Positions 39,621 through 46,583 of a DNA stretch of 64,000 nt are shown one piece after another (position 1 is the first letter of the stretch; the number at the start of each line of letters is the position of its first letter). The notes under the pieces are model-generated. The model saw only the letters and a list, made by a program, of their open reading frames with translations, ran no database searches and had not been told where the DNA came from. This DNA comes from Neolewinella aurantiaca (GTDB lineage Bacteria; Bacteroidota; Bacteroidia; Chitinophagales; Saprospiraceae). The position numbers and the translations under genes were made by a program. Location: NCBI RefSeq assembly GCF_008014675.1, contig NZ_VOXD01000013.1:62001-126000 (forward strand), in the 5' to 3' direction.

Positions 39621-42131
39621 ATGGATAAACACTTCTTTTATAACCTGCAGTCCCGTGCCAGGCAGTTGGGGCTGAATGTCTGGGCGTGGGTTCGCCGTCA
39701 GCCACCACTGAAGCTTGCATTTGCTGTCATTGCCCTGCTGGTACTGGTAACAACGGTGCTTTTTCTTACCCTTTTCATCAGAACACTGGGAGGCAACTAT
39801 GGCCATATGCCCGAGCACGCAGAGTTGGCCCTGATCGAAAACTCGGAAGCCAGCTCGGTTATCAGCGAAGATGGTAAGTTGCTGGGTAAATACTTCAGGG
39901 AAAACCGGGTGAGTGTTGAACTGGATGAAATCTCGCCCTACGTGATCCAGGCCCTGATCGCGACCGAAGACAGTCGGTTTTTCGAGCACCAGGGCATCGA
40001 CCTTAGGGCTTTAGCCCGGGTGGCCTGGCGTTCTATCATCCTTGGTGACCGGAGTGGCGGTGGAGGTTCCACCATTAGCCAGCAGTTGGCCAAGCAACTG
40101 TATCCCCGCCACAACAGCGGTAAATTCGGGATGATCAAGATCAAGATGCGGGAGATGATTATCGCCAGCCGTTTGGAAGAAGTGTACGACAAGCAGGAAC
40201 TGCTTGCACTGTACCTGAACACTGTTCCCTTCGGCGAAAACGCTTACGGCATCGAAGTTGCTGCGGGGCGTTTCTTTAGCAAATCCGCCGCAGATTTGAA
40301 GGCAGAAGAAGCGGCTGTACTCGTCGGCCTGCTCAAGGCAAATACCAGCTATAACCCGCGTGCCCACCCTGAGCGGAGCCGCGAACGCCGGGACCTTGTA
40401 CTGGCCCTGATGGCCCAGAACGGATCGCTCGAGAAAACGGTGACCGACAGTCTGGCTGCTCTGCCACTCGTGATCGACTACCAACGCCAGAACGACCGCG
40501 TAGGCAGCGCGACTTACTTCCGCCACATGCTCCGCGCCGAAGCAGAGAAAGCCCTGGCGGGCAAGAAACGGCCGGACAGCCGGCCGTGGGACATCGACCG
40601 CGACGGGCTCCTGATCCACGTTAGCGTCAACTCCGTTATGCAACGGCTGGCCGAGGAAGCCGTGCTGGAGCAGCTGCCCCGCATCCAGCAGAACCTGGCC
40701 ATCGACTGGAAATCCGCCAAGCGTGCGCCCTGGGAAGATGCCTTTATGAAAACCGTGAAGCGCAGTCCCCGCTATAAAAACCTGGAAGCGGCCGGAAAGA
40801 ATGAGGACGAGATCATGGAAGTCCTGCGCCAGCCCCGACCGATGACGATCTACGACTGGAAAACTGCCGATGCCGTTGATACGATGATGCGGCCAATAGA
40901 CAGTTTACGCCACTACTTCACCTTGCTGAACGCAGGTTTGCTGGCCACCGAGCCAGAAAACGGGGTGGTTCGTGCGTGGGTAGGCGGCGTGGATTACCGC
41001 TTTGTACAGTACGACCACGTGACGGCCCGCCGGCAGGTGGGATCCACCATAAAGCCCGTCATTTACGCCACTGCTTTGCAGCGTGGGATGCTGCCTTGCG
41101 AATACACCCCGGCGCAGCAGTTCACGATCGAGGACTTCCAGAACTACAATCCGCGTAACCCCGGCGGCAATTACGAAGGAGCGTACTCAATGCGGGGTGG
41201 CCTGGCCAAGTCGGTGAATACCGTTGCCGTAAACCTCGCCGTCCGCAGCGGGCTCCAGAACGTCGTCGATGAAATCCACGAGTTGGGCATCACCGGTAAG
41301 GTGGAGGCTATCCCCAGCGTCGCCCTCGGCACGGTAGAGGCTACGCTGCCGGAGATGAATACCGTCTTCAGTGCCTTCGCTAACGGCGGCCGGAGGCCGA
41401 CGGGTGGCATTCATTTCCTCGATAAGATTACGACGGCAGACGGAGAGACGATCGTCAGCTTTGTCCGGCCGAAGAAAACCATGCGCGTGATGAGCGATAC
41501 CGTCGCCAACATCACGACCTTCCTGATGACCGGTGTGGTCAACAACGGTACGGGTGCCCGGCTGCGCAGCACCTACGGCGTCAGCGGCGCCCTGGCCGGA
41601 AAAACAGGAACTACGCAGGACCAGTCAGACGGCTGGTTTGTGGGGTACAACCCGAAGCTTGTGGTAAGCACATGGGTGGGGGCGGAGTACCCCGCTGTTC
41701 ACTTCCGCACGCTGCGGCGCGGCTCGGCGACTGCTACGGCCCTGCCCGTGTGGGGAACGTTCATGCGCAAGGTGCAACGGACCCGTGGACTCGGCCGCTA
41801 CCACGGCGGTAGTTTCCCCCGCCTCGATGAAATGACCGTCGCTCTGCTGGAATGCCCCGACTACCTCGAAGAATTGCCCGTCTACGCCGAATACGGTGCT
41901 CCTGATCCGGAGGACATCATGTCTGTGAACGAAATCAGGGCCCGGTTGGCTGAGTTCCCCGCCCAGGACGTAGAGCAAATGATGGCCCGCAAGCGCCGCC
42001 GCAACAACGAAAGCACGCTTGCTTACACCCGGCGAATCATCGGATTGCTGGAAAGAGATAACCGGAGAGATGAACGGAAGGCTAAGCGGAAAGAGTTTTG
42101 GGCGAAGACCTTGTTTGGGAAGAAGGATTAG
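39621..42131 (+). CDS. mrcA: Penicillin-binding protein 1A, bifunctional transglycosylase/transpeptidase
   Basis: An 836-aa class A PBP that polymerises glycan strands and cross-links peptides. A single TM helix (about residues 31-54) follows a short cytoplasmic part. The GT51 domain has ATEDSRFFEHQGID (Glu116) and GGGSTISQQLAKQL. The transpeptidase has SxxK (GSTIKP, near 475), SxN (KSVNTV) and KTGTTQ (near 660). The C-terminus is a basic tail of about 60 residues. The TAG stop at 42129-42131 abuts the 3' end of a convergent tRNA gene. Confidence 0.95.
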   Translation: MDKHFFYNLQSRARQLGLNVWAWVRRQPPLKLAFAVIALLVLVTTVLFLTLFIRTLGGNYGHMPEHAELALIENSEASSVISEDGKLLGKYFRENRVSVELDEISPYVIQALIATEDSRFFEHQGIDLRALARVAWRSIILGDRSGGGGSTISQQLAKQLYPRHNSGKFGMIKIKMREMIIASRLEEVYDKQELLALYLNTVPFGENAYGIEVAAGRFFSKSAADLKAEEAAVLVGLLKANTSYNPRAHPERSRERRDLVLALMAQNGSLEKTVTDSLAALPLVIDYQRQNDRVGSATYFRHMLRAEAEKALAGKKRPDSRPWDIDRDGLLIHVSVNSVMQRLAEEAVLEQLPRIQQNLAIDWKSAKRAPWEDAFMKTVKRSPRYKNLEAAGKNEDEIMEVLRQPRPMTIYDWKTADAVDTMMRPIDSLRHYFTLLNAGLLATEPENGVVRAWVGGVDYRFVQYDHVTARRQVGSTIKPVIYATALQRGMLPCEYTPAQQFTIEDFQNYNPRNPGGNYEGAYSMRGGLAKSVNTVAVNLAVRSGLQNVVDEIHELGITGKVEAIPSVALGTVEATLPEMNTVFSAFANGGRRPTGGIHFLDKITTADGETIVSFVRPKKTMRVMSDTVANITTFLMTGVVNNGTGARLRSTYGVSGALAGKTGTTQDQSDGWFVGYNPKLVVSTWVGAEYPAVHFRTLRRGSATATALPVWGTFMRKVQRTRGLGRYHGGSFPRLDEMTVALLECPDYLEELPVYAEYGAPDPEDIMSVNEIRARLAEFPAQDVEQMMARKRRRNNESTLAYTRRIIGLLERDNRRDERKAKRKEFWAKTLFGKKD

Positions 42132-42205
42132 AGACGGCAGCCGGAATCGAACCGGCATCTCAGGGGTTGCAATCCTGCCCCATTGCCAACATCGGGCATA
42201 CCGTT
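42132..42205 (-). tRNA. tRNA-Cys(GCA), with some non-standard pairs
   Basis: Cloverleaf on the minus strand: acceptor 5' AACGGTA with TGCCGTC (A1-C72 mismatch), D stem CCCG/TGGG, anticodon loop TTGCAAC with GCA, T arm GCCGG-TTCGATT-CCGGC intact. The discriminator is U73, as expected for Cys. One anticodon-stem pair (31-39) is mismatched. The gene begins one base after the mrcA stop codon on the other strand. Confidence 0.7.
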
Positions 42206-42218
42206 TTGACAGCGTGTG

Positions 42219-42303
42219 CGGTAGGTGAGGGACTCGAACCCCCGAATGGTTTCCCACGTCTCTCCTTAGCAAGGAGGCCCGTTACCAGCTCCGGCAACCT
42301 ACC
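42219..42303 (-). tRNA. tRNA-Ser(GCT)
   Basis: Acceptor GGTAGGT/ACCTACC perfect, D arm CCGG-AGCTGG-TAACGGG, anticodon loop TTGCTAA with GCT, long variable arm (AGACGTGGGAAACCATTCG) typical of Ser, and T arm GGGGG-TTCGAGT-CCCTC. Discriminator G. Confidence 0.9.
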
Positions 42304-42316
42304 GTGTTAAAACTTG

Positions 42317-42390
42317 CACCTCCCATAGGAATCGAACCCATGACGCAACGGAGTTGGAATCCGTCGGCAACACCCACTTGCTGGGGAGGC
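42317..42390 (-). tRNA. tRNA-Trp(CCA)
   Basis: Acceptor GCCTCCC with GGGAGGT (one G-U at position 1), D arm GCAA-GTGGGTG-TTGC, anticodon stem ACGGA/TCCGT with loop TTCCAAC, T arm ATGGG-TTCGATT-CCTAT. Discriminator G, as expected for Trp. The body differs from the usual Bacteroidota Trp tRNA. Confidence 0.75.
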
Positions 42391-42423
42391 GGTTTTTAGA
42401 AGCTAGGAATTAGGAGCTAGAAA

Positions 42424-42593
42424 CTTGTGGCCTGTCAAGATCAGATTTTCAGGTAGCCTGCGATGCTTTTTTGCGCCTGACGTCGTTGACCAAACACTTC
42501 CGTAGCTACGGCAATGCAAGTATTTGGTCGCCTGGTCAGCCACAAAAAATCATCAGCATCCAACCCGAAAATTGAACCTTGACAAACCAATAG
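42424..42593. repeat. Interspersed structured repeat, family B copy 4, inside the tRNA cluster
   Basis: Imperfect terminal inverted repeats around TTGTGGCCTGTCAAG and CTTGACAAACCAATAG. The central hairpin keeps its pairing with different bases (ACCAAA/TTTGGT instead of CTCAAA/TTTGAG). It separates tRNA-Trp from tRNA-Phe. Confidence 0.72.
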
Positions 42594-42646
42594 AGTATTA
42601 AGTCATCTCCTCGTAACAATTCACTAATTCCTATCTTCTAAAATTG

Positions 42647-42720
42647 TGGTGCCGGAAGGATTTGAACCTCCGACCTTCTGTGCTTCAAACAGACGCTGCT
42701 ACCAACTGAGCTACGACACC
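42647..42720 (-). tRNA. tRNA-Phe(GAA)
   Basis: Perfect acceptor GGTGTCG with CGGCACC, D arm GCTC-AGTTGGTA-GCAGC, anticodon stem TCTGT/ACAGA with loop TTGAAGC, T arm GGAGG-TTCAAAT-CCTTC, discriminator A. Confidence 0.92.
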
Positions 42721-42731
42721 GGAATAACTTG

Positions 42732-42838
42732 CGGAAACTGAAGGAGTCGATCTCCGAAGGAAGCAGCGTAGCTAACCTTCGACCTTTCAGTCGGGCTGGT
42801 TTTCAAGACCAGTTGCACGCCACCGCGCCCCAGCTTCC
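42732..42838 (-). tRNA. tRNA-Ser(TGA) with a 24-nt T-loop insertion
   Basis: Acceptor GGAAGCT/AGTTTCC (one G-U), anticodon stem CTGGT/ACCAG with loop CTTGAAA, and variable-arm stem CGAC/GTCG. The T arm becomes a perfect GAAGG-TTCGACT-CCTTC only when 24 nt (42751-42774) are removed. With the insertion the gene is 107 bp. Confidence 0.8.
42751..42774 (-). other. 24-nt insertion in the T loop of tRNA-Ser(TGA)
   Basis: Minus strand: begins TAGCTACGCTGCT and ends CCTTCGGAGA. It interrupts the loop after the first or second T (T54/T55; the boundary is ambiguous by one base). 20 of 24 positions match the insertion at 43220-43243. Confidence 0.75.
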
Positions 42839-42844
42839 ATATCC

Positions 42845-42938
42845 GTTAACAAACATTCCGGTTTTCCACCTCTCCCCCCGCCCTTTCCTACAGGCTTCGC
42901 CCAAGGCTCAGCGGAGAGGGAGCCAAAATGTCTGTTAC
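42845..42938. repeat. Degraded family A element (copy 2) between tRNA-Ser and tRNA-Pro
   Basis: Minus-strand CCCTCTCCGCTGAGCCTTGG matches the interior of the elements at 31771 and 59364. The ends (GTTAACAAACATT and AATGTCTGTTAC) are imperfect inverted repeats. Confidence 0.65.
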
Positions 42939-42960
42939 TTAGCGGTCAATGAATTAATCG

Positions 42961-43035
42961 TACGGGTAGTCCGACTCGAACGGACATCTCCTGCGCTCCA
43001 AACGCAACTCTTTCGGCCAATTAAGATACACCCGT
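42961..43035 (-). tRNA. tRNA-Pro(TGG)
   Basis: Acceptor ACGGGTG/TACCCGT (one G-U), D arm TCTT-AATTGGCCGA-AAGA, anticodon stem TTGCG/CGCAG with loop TTTGGAG, T arm GTCCG-TTCGAGT-CGGAC, discriminator A. Confidence 0.88.
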
Positions 43036-43041
43036 AAAAGA

Positions 43042-43079
43042 GAAGGCCCGCCGGTGAACTTGTCACCAACGGGCCTTCC
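43042..43079 (-). terminator. GC-rich hairpin between tRNA-Met-like and tRNA-Pro
   Basis: Minus strand: GGAAGGCCCGTTGGTGACA pairs with the GTTCACCGGCGGGCCTTC arm and is followed by TCTTTT. It may end the transcript of the upstream tRNA-like gene. Confidence 0.6.
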
Positions 43080-43201
43080 AAAACGCATGCTTTACGCACA
43101 CTGGTCAGCTACCGTCAGGACGGGGGAGAAGGGATAAAACAACTCGGTGACCAGAATAGAAACATGATGATTGAATTTTTTAGCTTTGAATTTTTCTTTG
43201 A

Positions 43202-43296
43202 TGCGGGAAGAGGGTTCGACCGCCGAAGGCAGCAGCGCAGCTAACCCACGATCACTGGCTTATGAGACCGGTATGCTACCACTGCACTACCCCGCA
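43202..43296 (-). tRNA. tRNA-Met-like gene (CAT) with a 24-nt T-loop insertion
   Basis: Anticodon loop CTCATAA, D arm GTGC-AGTGGTA-GCAT. Acceptor TGCGGGG/TCCCGCA can pair throughout but then gives an unusual T discriminator; shifting by one gives GCGGGG/CCCGC with discriminator A. After removal of 43220-43243 the T loop reads TTCGAAC, but the T stem and one anticodon pair are poor. It may be a decaying or unusual tRNA; Met versus Ile2 (lysidine) cannot be told. Confidence 0.6.
43220..43243 (-). other. 24-nt insertion in the T loop of the tRNA-Met-like gene
   Basis: Minus strand: begins TAGCTGCGCTGCT and ends CCTTCGGCGG. Same T-loop position as in tRNA-Ser(TGA). A hairpin CTGCC-TTC-GGCGG can form; the tRNA-Ser copy replaces its G-C pair by T-A. 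Confidence 0.7.
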
Positions 43297-43510
43297 TCGT
43301 TGTAAGGTCATGGAGGAAGTGATAAGTTGCAGGCAGCCCAATAATGTAAACGAGAACTCGCCAGTCGAATTCTTTTTTGCTCCGGCATTTAAGGAGATAC
43401 AAGTCTGGTGAAGATGATCCGGCTATTGAAGACAGAGATATGAAAGGGGGGGCAAAAAAGTTCGCCTGTCGAGTTCGGTTATGCCCGACCCGACTCCTCA
43501 AAACCTCACC

Positions 43511-43530
43511 CTGCATCCCGCGTCCGCGCC
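43511..43530 (+). repeat. 20-bp interspersed motif (copy 13)
   Basis: CTGCATCCCGCGTCCGCGCC, immediately next to the thrS terminator. Confidence 0.55.
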
Positions 43531-43574
43531 AAAAAAAAAGCGCCTCCCTACCGAAATAGAGAGGCGCTTAAGTT
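43531..43574 (-). terminator. Terminator of thrS
   Basis: Minus strand: AGCGCCTCTCTATTT pairs with GGTAGGGAGGCGCT, followed by nine T residues. It lies about 85 bp downstream of the stop codon. Confidence 0.88.
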
Positions 43575-43594
43575 TTGAAGAGTCGAATGGCGCA

Positions 43595-43634
43595 GTCGGC
43601 GGACGAGTCAGAGCTAACGCTCGCCTCGGCCGAC
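43595..43634. repeat. Palindrome with AGCTAA centre downstream of thrS
   Basis: GTCGGCGGACGAGTCAG and CGCTCGCCTCGGCCGAC form imperfect arms around AGCTAA. It lies between the thrS stop and terminator. Confidence 0.6.
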
Positions 43635-43658
43635 GACCTGAAGTTTCCCCTGTGGGGC

Positions 43659-45587
43659 CTAGTACGTCAACTGCTCCTTAAAGAAAGCGATAAATTCTTC
43701 GACGGACATCGTGCCCTTATCGCCTTCGCCCTGCACGCGCACGGCAACGCCGCCGGCCTCGACTTCCTTCTCGCCTACGATGAGCATGAAGGGGATGCGG
43801 TTGGTTTCGTTGTCGCGAATCTTGCGGCCGATGGTCTCGTTGCGGTCGTCCACCAAGCCACGGATATCGTGGGCGGCGAGCTGCTGGGAGACCTCGTGGC
43901 AGTAGTCGTTGTACTTTTCGCTGATGGGGAGGATGGCAAACTGATCGGGCGTTAGCCAGAGCGGGAACTTGCCGCCGGTGTGCTCGATGAGGATGGAGGT
44001 GAAGCGCTCCAGCGATCCGAAGGGTGCGCGGTGGATCATCACCGGGCGGTGGGGCTGGTTGTCGGAGCCAATGTACTCCAGCTCGAAACGTTCGGGCAGG
44101 TTGTAGTCTACCTGTACGGTGCCGAGCTGCCAGCTGCGGCCAATAGCGTCGCGAACCATGAAGTCGAGCTTGGGACCGTAGAAAGCGGCTTCGCCGTACT
44201 CGGTTACGGTCTTAATATCGATCTCCTTACAGGCATCGATGATGGCCTGCTCGGCGGTCTCCCAGTTTTCTTCGGAGCCGATGTACTTTTCGGGCTTGTC
44301 CGGGTCGCGTAGCGAGATCTGGGCGGTCACGTCGTCGAAGCCGATGAGGTTAAGGACGTCCTTCACGATGTCTACCACGGCGATGAATTCGTCCTTCACC
44401 TGGTTGGGCATACAGAAGATGTGAGCATCGTCCTGCGTGAAGCCGCGTACGCGGCTCAGGCCGTGCAGCTCACCGGTTTGCTCGTAACGGTAAACGGTGC
44501 CGAACTCGGCGAGGCGCAGCGGGAGCTCTTTGTAAGAGCGCGGGCGGAATTTGTACATCTCGCAGTGGTGCGGGCAGTTCATGGGCTTAAGCATGAACTC
44601 CTCGTCTACCCGTGGGGTCTTTATGGGCTGGAAGCTGTCTTCTCCGTATTTGTCCCAGTGACCGGAGGTCACGTACAGGTCTTTCTTGCCGATGTGCGGC
44701 GTGGTTACCTGCTGGTAGCCGGCGTTTTCCTGCTTTACTTTCAGGAAATTCACGAGGCGTTCGCGGAGCTGGGTGCCTTTTGGCAGCCACATCGGGAGGC
44801 CGGCGCCAACTTTGTCGGAGAACATGAAAAGTTCGAGTTCCTTACCTAGTTTGCGGTGGTCGCGCTTCTTGGCTTCTTCCAGCATTTCGAGGTATTCCTT
44901 CAGCTCTTTGGCCTTGGGGAAGGAGATGCCGGAGATGCGGGTGAGCTGTTTGTTGTTTTCGTCGCCGCGCCAGAAGGCACCGCCGACTTTCATCAGCTTG
45001 ATCGCCTTGATGGCACCCGTGTTGGGGATGTGTGGGCCACGGCAGAGATCGGTGAACTCACCCTGGGTGTAGAAGGTGATGGTGCCGTCTTCGAGGGCGT
45101 CCAGCAGTTCCAGTTTGTACTCGTCGCCTTTTTCGGTGAAATAAGCGATAGCATCGGCCTTGCTTACTTCCTTACGGGTGAATTTGTTTTTCTGGCGGGC
45201 CAGTTCCAGCATCTTAGCTTCGATCTTCGGGAAGTCGTCGGTACTGATCACGGTTCCTTCGGGGGGCTCTACGTCGTAGAAGAACCCCTTTTCACTGGCG
45301 GGGCCGTAGCCGAACTTGATGCCGGGGTAGAGGGCTTCCAACGCTTCGGCCATCAGGTGGGCCGTAGAGTGCCAGAAGGTTTCCTTGCCCTGCTGGTCGT
45401 TCCAGGTATGAAGGGCGAGGGTGGCGTCTTTTGTGAGTGGGAGGTCGCGGTCGGTCAGTTGGCCGTTTACGGTAGCTGATACGACGTTGCGGGCAAGGCC
45501 GCTGGAAATACTTTCGGCAATCTGAAAAGCAGAGGTGCCGGACTCGTACTGACGGACGTTGCCGTCCGGAAAAGTGATGTTGATCAT
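43659..45587 (-). CDS. thrS: Threonyl-tRNA synthetase
   Basis: Charges tRNA-Thr. The 642-aa class II enzyme has an N-terminal TGS domain ([17 protein letters not shown]), an editing domain with [11 protein letters not shown] (HxxxH, near residues 73-80), the catalytic core with [21 protein letters not shown] (zinc Cys) and FRYEQ-like [19 protein letters not shown], and a C-terminal anticodon-binding domain. ATG 45587 matches the family start better than the ATG nine bases earlier. A TAACTTTG box lies upstream. Confidence 0.96.
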
Positions 45588-45633
45588 CAGGGTCATTTAG
45601 TGCCTTCCTACAAACGAAGGCGGGTTCAGGGCG

Positions 45634-45641
45634 CAAAGTTA
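45634..45641 (-). promoter_or_regulatory. Probable -7 box of thrS
   Basis: Minus-strand TAACTTTG, an exact TAnnTTTG match about 47 bp upstream of ATG 45587. Confidence 0.55.
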
Positions 45642-45716
45642 ATTCTTAGTCCGTTAGCCTGTTAGTTCAACGCTTCTTAAGTGAAATGGTCTGGCAGGTA
45701 GCGGCTGTAATTTTCT

Positions 45717-45737
45717 GGCGGGGTCGCAGGTGCAAAG
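45717..45737 (-). repeat. 20-bp interspersed motif (copy 14)
   Basis: GGCGGGGTCGCAGGTGCAAA, about 75 bp upstream of the thrS -7 box. Confidence 0.65.
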
Positions 45738-45792
45738 CGGAGTTTCCTGTGCTGAGTTACTCCGGGAGACTATTTTCTTTATTTCGTGGGGG

Positions 45793-45852
45793 CAAAAAAA
45801 AGCACTCAGCACTCAGCCCCGGGCATTGCCGGGAAACTGAACACTGAGTGCT
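45793..45852 (-). terminator. Terminator of the YceI-gene
   Basis: Minus-strand stem CAGCACTCAGTGTTCAG...CTGAGTGCTGAGTGC with inner CCCGG pairing, followed by eight T residues. Shares outer stem sequence with the terminators at 2251 and 46763. Confidence 0.8.
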
Positions 45853-45929
45853 GGGTAGTCGGTAAGTCCTTGCGTTTAGCTGATAAGGAACCAGGCCGAC
45901 TACAGGCTCGAAACAAATCGGGCGACAGG

Positions 45930-46583
45930 CTATTTGTTGGCAACCAACATGATCTCGAGACCGATGTTGTCGTTGATCATCTTGTCCTGTACGGTACCAA
46001 TTGCTCCGCTGCCGTACTCCATACCCCACTGGGTACGATCGATGGTGAACTTAGGAGTACTTGCTTTCAGCATTCCTCCCTCCATAGAAACGGTGGCAGG
46101 AATGGTGATGCTGCGGCTTTCGCCGTGCAGGGTAAGGTTACCGGTGATGTCGTGTGTGCGGCCGTCTTCGTTAGAAGCTTCCTGTACCTGAGTGATGACG
46201 AAGTTGGCCATCGGGTAAGTCTCTACGTCGAAGAAGTCTGCGCTCTGGAGGTGAGAGATCAGCTTGGTTGCTTTTTCGCCTTCCAGGTCGGTGCTTTCCA
46301 TCTCACGCAGGTCGATCGCAAACTTCCCTCCAACGATTGCATCGTTGGCAACGATCAGCTGACCGTCGGTAACGCGAACCGTGCCGGTGTGTCCGTAAGC
46401 GATCTTTGATCCTTCCCAGTTAATGACGCTGGCCGCAGGGTCAACGTTGTACTGTGTCGAAGAAACCATTTCGGTCTTGGTTGTTTCGTCTTCGGCTTCG
46501 GAGGATTCCACAGCCTGGCCTTCGGGGCCACCGCATGCGGTGAAGAAAGCAGCGAGGGTAAGTAAGAAAAAGAAATTTTTCAT
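45930..46583 (-). CDS. YceI-family lipoprotein
   Basis: A 217-aa lipoprotein: signal peptide with lipobox AAFFTAC (Cys at residue 17), a short Glu-rich linker, then a YceI domain. The domain has YNVDPAASVINWEGSKIAYGHTGTVRVTDGQL, the FAIDLREMESTDLEG stretch, NFVITQVQEA and the late DRTQWGMEYGSGAIG motif. YceI proteins are lipocalin-like barrels that bind isoprenoids or other lipids. The longer frame to 46631 has no signal peptide. Confidence 0.92.
   Translation of the reverse strand: MKNFFFLLTLAAFFTACGGPEGQAVESSEAEDETTKTEMVSSTQYNVDPAASVINWEGSKIAYGHTGTVRVTDGQLIVANDAIVGGKFAIDLREMESTDLEGEKATKLISHLQSADFFDVETYPMANFVITQVQEASNEDGRTHDITGNLTLHGESRSITIPATVSMEGGMLKASTPKFTIDRTQWGMEYGSGAIGTVQDKMINDNIGLEIMLVANK

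Follow-up and report, generated by a model that had tools for sequence, protein, structure and literature searches.

Two redundant tRNA genes of Neolewinella aurantiaca probably carry copies of a dispersed 24-nt repeat in their T loops

What are the 24 extra nucleotides that interrupt two tRNA genes of Neolewinella aurantiaca at one and the same place, and do these genes still give working tRNAs? The genes lie in a stretch of 64,000 nt (contig NZ_VOXD01000013.1, positions 62,001 to 126,000; hereafter the window), and an earlier note, made from the letters alone, had drawn attention to them as a tRNA-Ser(TGA) and a tRNA-Met-like gene whose T loops are broken by a related insertion. We found the interruption where the note had placed it. 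In both the Ser(UGA) and the Met(CAU)-like gene, 24 extra nt stand between T55 and C56, with ends that are ambiguous by one T. ARAGORN, run on the whole window, called five of the seven tRNA genes of the surrounding cluster (Table 1) and missed the two interrupted ones; neither was called with the insert, and once the 24 nt were removed they were called as tRNA-Ser(tga) and tRNA-Met(cat). The T arm that the note had seen restored in the Ser gene, GAAGG-TTCGACT-CCTTC, was indeed recovered; in the Met gene, the T stem falls short of full pairing even after removal of the insert (GTGGG against CCTCT or CCCTC). The genome search with the Rfam tRNA model gave a weak match to the Met gene (29.8 bits); the gene was absent from the window scan, in which the Ser gene gave only a sub-threshold tRNA-Sec match of 22.3 bits.

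Table 1. Features of the extra tRNA cluster and its flanks, in window coordinates.
Feature	Position	Strand	Remark
Cluster of seven extra, divergent tRNA genes	42131..43296	-	ARAGORN and Rfam scan
Extra tRNA-Met(CAU)-like gene, 24-nt T-loop insertion	43202..43296	-	ARAGORN call only without the 24 nt
Dispersed unit in the Met gene T loop	43219..43242 (equally 43220-43243)	-	24 nt
tRNA-Pro(UGG), cluster member	42960-43035	-	
Extra tRNA-Ser(UGA) gene, 24-nt T-loop insertion	42733..42838	-	ARAGORN call only without the 24 nt
Dispersed unit in the Ser gene, T55^C56	42750..42773 (equally 42751-42774)	-	24 nt
tRNA-Phe(GAA), cluster member	42646-42720	-	
tRNA-Trp(CCA), cluster member	42316-42390	-	
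tRNA-Ser(GCU), cluster member	42218-42303	-	
tRNA-Cys(GCA), cluster member	42131-42205	-	
836-aa ORF	39621..42131	+	Converges on the tRNA cluster
645-aa ORF	43659..45596	-	Upstream of the tRNA cluster

The two inserts are identical at 20 of the 24 positions, and one pair of their differences is a compensatory change from G-C to T-A; both points had been made in the earlier note and hold. The compensatory change lies in the second of two hairpins. A chance likeness of the two loops was excluded by shuffled and reversed controls: the insert pattern matched twice in the window and never in 100 shuffles, and 20 times in the N. aurantiaca genome compared to 0 for the reversed pattern. On the evidence set out below, we consider it probable (about 80%) that the inserts are separate copies of one non-coding, probably mobile 24-nt repeat, sitting in two redundant and probably inactivated tRNA genes.

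The repeat was searched for as GTTNGCTNCGCNGCTNCCTNCGGNG with up to two mismatches, using the reversed pattern as the control; individual rows of the genus- and family-wide searches were read among the matches listed. It was matched 31 times in the 6.0-Mb genome of N. aurantiaca and between 1 and 65 times in every one of the 21 Neolewinella genomes, 336 times in total, compared to 0 or 1 match per genome, and 4 across the 21, for the reversed control. Four of the 21 genomes have only 1-3 matches, which is not clearly above the control. When up to one mismatch was allowed, the repeat was detected in 6 of 248 genomes of the family and in 2 of 112 genera. By their differing flanks, the 172 copies of the fetched loci formed 95 clusters, and most of these copies lie outside recognisable tRNA sequence. 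The exact T-loop pattern was matched seven times on six contigs across GTDB (Crocinitomicaceae, Brumimicrobium, Fluviicola, two of N. persica and an Opitutaceae MAG), in a scan that may omit records of the window's own or very near genomes, and ARAGORN called no tRNA on these loci. The units in the Crocinitomicaceae, Brumimicrobium and Fluviicola records (L257-L259) are very similar and of the TTAGCTNCGCTGCTGCCTTCGGCGGTCAA type. Elsewhere, four copies follow one another at a spacing of ~96 nt in a repetitive stretch (L157, G006:C6:3219-3530), each standing between GTGCC (ATGCC in one case) and GGCAC. In another locus (L318, G066:C96), the unit stands directly 3' of ATGGCAAAACGTAAA and, judged by eye, would lengthen an ORF by eight in-frame codons close to its start.

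The unit follows TT (or TG) and is laid out as NGC-TNC-GCN and then GCTNCC-TNC-GGNGGT, that is, as two adjacent hairpins. We aligned 76 of 77 cluster representatives, 60 of them distinct, and left out L155, which is from another genus (alignment A2). In A2, 97.4% of the cells pair compared to 88.0% after shuffling, and the covariation score was 0.227 compared to 0.065 for shuffled alignments and at most 0.042 for slid structures, with none of 500 shuffles reaching it. Covariation was clearest at pair 3-11 (A-U in 30, C-G in 20 and U-A in 5 sequences) and pair 15-23 (G-C in 43, U-A in 10 and A-U in 3). The search did not build it in, as its patterns had N at the covarying positions. Copies with other changes are under-sampled in A2, and related sequences inflate the covariation scores. 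Changes on both sides were seen at four of the nine pairs, two of them well populated (26 and 13 sequences) and two represented by one sequence each; as many further pair types were obtained in 55 of 500 shuffles. Compensatory changes lend support to both hairpins, for the most part at two pairs. Taken alone, the two 24-nt inserts fold no better than shuffles (z 0.46 and 0.64). In the flanks of the 77 clusters, T was found at position -2 in 74, at -1 in 65 and directly after the unit in 73; because T or GTT formed part of the patterns used to fetch the loci, the preference for T before the unit is to some extent a product of the search.

An empty site for the Met gene was found in N. persica (DSM 23188, G065). 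Its Met gene (L233:2523-2595) has no insertion and an intact T arm, GTGGG-TTCGATC-CCCAC, and, with the 24 nt set aside, 62 of its 71 positions are the same as in the window gene. N. persica has other copies of the unit, so the difference between the two genes lies in the occupation of this site. Similar Met genes without the insert were also found in two other genera (G047 and G003; L107 and L111), and one of them sits within an array of extra tRNAs. The evidence for an empty site consists of one pair, for the Met gene; the Ser gene is without such a pair. Of the five positions in the 3' strand of its T stem, the window Met gene has three that differ from the intact gene of N. persica.

Both interrupted genes have counterparts elsewhere in the genome. 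The tRNA model gave 50 matches in the N. aurantiaca genome, and ARAGORN called 48 genes on loci covering them. An intact Ser(UGA) gene was called elsewhere (G000:C30:67619-67706), as were three CAU genes outside the cluster, and each of the seven cluster anticodons has at least one further gene in the genome. The 645-aa ORF upstream of the cluster is, by its sequence, presumably threonyl-tRNA synthetase (thrS), and the 836-aa ORF that converges on it is what we take to be a penicillin-binding (PBP) transglycosylase/transpeptidase. In G068, the sole relative in which both flanks of the cluster are visible and whose ThrRS is 93% identical to that of the window, the 3' ends of the thrS and PBP genes are ~430 bases apart in one locus with no tRNA called. 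At 16 other thrS loci of the genus, ARAGORN called no tRNA and the PBP gene was not seen in the neighbourhood; near thrS in these relatives, ARAGORN would overlook interrupted tRNA genes. Relatives of the cluster Pro and Trp genes sit elsewhere in G075 (L232), and the relative of the Met gene in N. persica also sits elsewhere, ~16.5 kb from thrS on a common contig. The position of the tRNA cluster is thus not fixed among relatives. The earlier note had held that other intact Ser(TGA) and Met genes, together with a lack of transcription and of conservation in related strains, would speak against its reading; in part this is what was found, since other intact Ser(UGA) and CAU genes exist and the cluster is absent in G068. 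A script found no match for the tRNA cluster to a Bacteroidota-type promoter motif. Two further repeats lie between the tRNA genes. Positions 42853-42931 belong to a second dispersed repeat, whose copies in the same genome and in relatives, among the matches listed, are 78-93% identical, and positions ~42413-42594 are a third, an imperfect inverted repeat with a 70% match to its own opposite strand and with copies, again among the matches listed, in the same genome, G068, G065, G071 and others.

We then considered what the insert would do to the two tRNAs. In both RNAs, the native T stem had a predicted probability of ~0 when the insert was present, compared to pair probabilities of 0.17-0.72 (Ser) and 0.18-0.96 (Met) without it, and forcing the acceptor and T stems to form in its presence placed the fold 10.7 (Ser) and 6.8 (Met) kcal/mol above the MFE, in predictions whose model leaves modifications and tertiary contacts outside. 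Compared to shuffles, folding of the interrupted Ser RNA is better (z -2.41), although the shape is not that of a tRNA, and folding of the interrupted Met RNA is not (z -0.83). Neither gene has the 5-bp T arm with a 7-nt loop that is a feature of a working tRNA. In both, the insert separates T55 from C56, the two nucleotides that contact G18 and G19 (PMC7609411). Both interrupted genes probably give no working tRNA, since the insert breaks into the U-turn of the T loop and the predicted folds lack the T stem. As the genome has further genes for both tRNAs, loss of function is also the simplest view. Apart from its insert the Ser gene is intact, and so it may be expressed or tolerated.

Units in tRNA loops are not confined to the window. 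The earlier note had proposed a search for further tRNAs with the insertion, and such units or related hairpins were found in loops of partial Trp, Arg, Asn and Asp tRNA copies. In G062, a partial tRNA-Arg(CCG) copy lies beside the intact gene; the script found a unit in its anticodon loop, and a related unit in its T loop was seen by eye (L274). Tandem 3' halves of tRNA-Asn in the same genome carry T-loop units, four found by script and a fifth by eye (L254), and a tRNA-Asp 3' half has a unit in its T loop, again by eye. The tRNA-Asn halves lie at ~93.8-94.5 kb of G062:C50, near an array of extra tRNAs. In copies of tRNA-Trp, the script found units in the anticodon and D loops; 11 of the 12 rows of its table of tRNA-loop insertions were kept, and L036 was set aside as an alignment artefact.

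Partial tRNA-Trp copies within 1.2 kb of the intact gene gave 61 matches in 14 of the 21 genomes, compared to 0 on the opposite strand and 0.8 on average over the 21 genomes for shuffled tRNA. In two genomes a contig ends within the 1.2 kb, and what places N. aurantiaca itself among the 14 is a single 14-nt trace (positions 38-51). The copies (L400, L401, L413, L394, L396, L398, L399, L402, L405, L409, L411, L412, L393, L397) lie between what we take to be tuf-like and secE-like sequence; those upstream mostly retain the 5' part and those downstream the 3' part of the gene, and they are mostly hairpin-bearing. The 91 interior alignment ends, which are non-independent owing to tandem copies, included 31 in the D loop (positions 16-22), 36 in the anticodon loop (36-41) and 9 in the T loop (58-60); 12 more fell at 48-51 and 3 elsewhere. 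The D-loop inserts of the script rows are 22-24-nt variants, and the T-loop inserts are 41 nt in G066 and similar in G062 and G075; the insert sequence is different in the copies of G273. Within one tRNA-Trp copy, the D-loop and anticodon-loop units have opposite orientations. Seven copies were folded, with z-scores from -4.05 to +0.35; five of them have both units, and pairing between the units was predicted in four of these five. Among the rows listed for 100 family genomes, 98 of them from outside the genus, no tRNA-Trp half-copy with these break points was found outside the genus, a null result that is weak because the rows listed are a part and because the gene has diverged there.

To examine the target, we removed the unit and checked the junction for an inverted repeat, using one representative for each of the 95 flank clusters. 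A stem score of at least 5 was reached at 21/95 junctions compared to 154/1900 controls and 914/10364 TT-matched controls; for scores of at least 6 the counts were 10/95, 43/1900 and 282/10364, and for at least 7 they were 6/95, 13/1900 and 106/10364. Against the first control, Fisher tests at the three thresholds gave P values of ~4e-5, 1e-4 and 2e-4. The mean stem score differed from both controls (P 0.013 and, TT-matched, 0.016), and the mean number of pairs across the junction differed from the first control (P 0.020) but not significantly from the TT-matched one (P 0.088). Thus an excess at hairpin loops is suggested, but for a minority of the copies. As a universal rule, hairpin-loop targeting is unsupported, most copies being outside such loops. 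The presence of two of the 31 N. aurantiaca copies in tRNA genes had a P of ~2e-4 when the whole genome was considered, and of ~0.01 if copies are restricted to an assumed intergenic fraction of 12%.

These observations suggest how the locus may have arisen. The 24-nt unit probably went into the T loops of two redundant genes of the tRNA cluster at the conserved TT^C. Most likely, the unit would be placed in DNA after TT by a putative enzyme that acts in trans and to some degree favours a TT in a hairpin loop. We propose that hairpin loops would be favoured because single-stranded DNA is exposed there. The occurrence of both orientations of the unit within one tRNA copy argues, without proof, for a DNA rather than an RNA substrate. 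It is possible, and no more than tentatively put forward here, that the unit prefers a TT in hairpin loops with tRNA loops among the favoured ones, and that the tRNA-Trp copies between tuf and secE are kept as structured non-coding RNA. If so, the paired inverted units in the D and anticodon loops near tRNA-Trp would be a structured RNA and not debris.

Other explanations for the pair of inserts were weighed against the same evidence. One T loop might have been invaded once and the second insert copied by gene conversion within the cluster, as the identical site and the distance of ~0.5 kb between the Ser and Met genes would allow. The inserts, however, differ at four of 24 positions and represent two forms, GCTTCC..GGAG and GCTGCC..GGCG, each of which is present elsewhere in the genome, and the T stems around them differ, all of which makes this course rather improbable. 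The unit might instead be a REP or REPIN that depends on a Y1 (RAYT) transposase for its movement; it is small and palindromic, some copies are arranged as inverted pairs (L271, L330), and Y1 transposases were found in 20 of the 21 genomes. Yet no GTAG or CGTC tag occurs in the 76 copies of A2 or is conserved just outside the 77 clusters, and no unit with up to two mismatches was found in the 30 examined of 70 Y1 loci with flanks of up to ~1.5 kb. The numbers of Y1 genes and units are also uncorrelated across the 21 genomes (Spearman 0.19, P 0.41), and we think it quite unlikely that the unit belongs to this class.

Two further explanations would have the tRNAs work, and among the fates that the earlier note had entertained (splicing, an extra arm or decay), decay fits best and nothing supports splicing. 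That the insert is intron-like and removed from the precursor tRNA to leave a normal T loop might be read from its common position and hairpin in both genes and from the way in which exact removal restores both tRNAs in ARAGORN. A length of 24 nt is too short for a group I or II intron core, and no intron family appeared in the Rfam scan of positions 40000-46000. The unit is also found at many other places, mostly outside tRNA sequence, and in antisense in the tRNA-Trp copies, and splicing is unnecessary because other genes for both tRNAs exist; we regard an intron as very improbable. Alternatively, the insert might be retained and tolerated as an extra arm, with the tRNAs working, perhaps under stress, as in the Anabaena trn operon. 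Apart from the insert, the Ser gene has the form of a good type II tRNA, and its RNA with the insert is better folded than shuffles; outward stacking of the double hairpin from the loop is conceivable, and arrays of extra tRNAs can be functional (PMC10272220). Such tolerance would have to overcome the predicted loss of the T stem and the cost of 10.7 and 6.8 kcal/mol for restoring it, the parting of T55 from C56 with their contacts to G18/G19 (PMC7609411) and, in the Met gene, a T stem altered relative to N. persica, and it seems unlikely. We therefore return to copies of a dispersed repeat in two redundant genes as the preferred reading.

The annotation of such loci calls for caution, both interrupted tRNA genes having been missed by ARAGORN. 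In the open-licence literature we found no report of units of this kind in tRNA loops. Repeats of ~24 nt are too short for the usual transposon ends. As tRNA genes are exact and recognisable targets, insertion there reveals the empty site, the orientation and the end points of the unit. With 21 genomes that hold repeats, an empty site in a type strain and insertions in three tRNA loops, the rules of target choice and a search for the enzyme become practical.

Among known systems, tRNA introns resemble the insert in that their exact removal from a tRNA loop restores the cloverleaf. They are group I introns in bacteria and bulge-helix-bulge introns in archaea, some of them in the T loop, and the 24-nt unit differs in being dispersed, in occurring outside tRNAs and in occurring in antisense. 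Rickettsia palindromic elements are likewise palindromic and enter genes, and at ~100-150 nt they are much longer than the 24-nt unit. RPE-1 is described within a tRNA pseudouridine synthase gene in PMC3733652. REPs and REPINs, as portrayed in PMC3116915 and PMC3733652, are tiny palindromic repeats with many copies that are sometimes arranged as inverted pairs; the Neolewinella unit differs by the lack of a GTAG or CGTC tag, by its two hairpins and by its presence in tRNA loops. The cluster itself recalls the Anabaena trn operon, where extra tRNA genes stand beside a complete housekeeping set (PMC10272220). In comparison with such arrays, the extra genes here are seven in number and lie on a 149-kb contig between two housekeeping-type genes. 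The closest likeness is to the small dispersed repeats (SDRs) of Nostoc and its relatives, which Elhai and colleagues reportedly described in 2008 (Genome Res 18:1484) as dispersed repeats of 21-27 nt in varied contexts, said to show compensatory changes in their structure, confinement to clades and signs of recent movement. The Neolewinella unit is 24 nt long and dispersed, with differing flanks, compensatory changes and one empty site; the hosts differ, Bacteroidota here and cyanobacteria there, and the two are likened by description and not by sequence. We know of no repeated presence of SDRs in the loops of tRNA copies, unlike the Neolewinella unit. The insert in the two T loops is most likely a very small mobile repeat comparable to the cyanobacterial SDRs.
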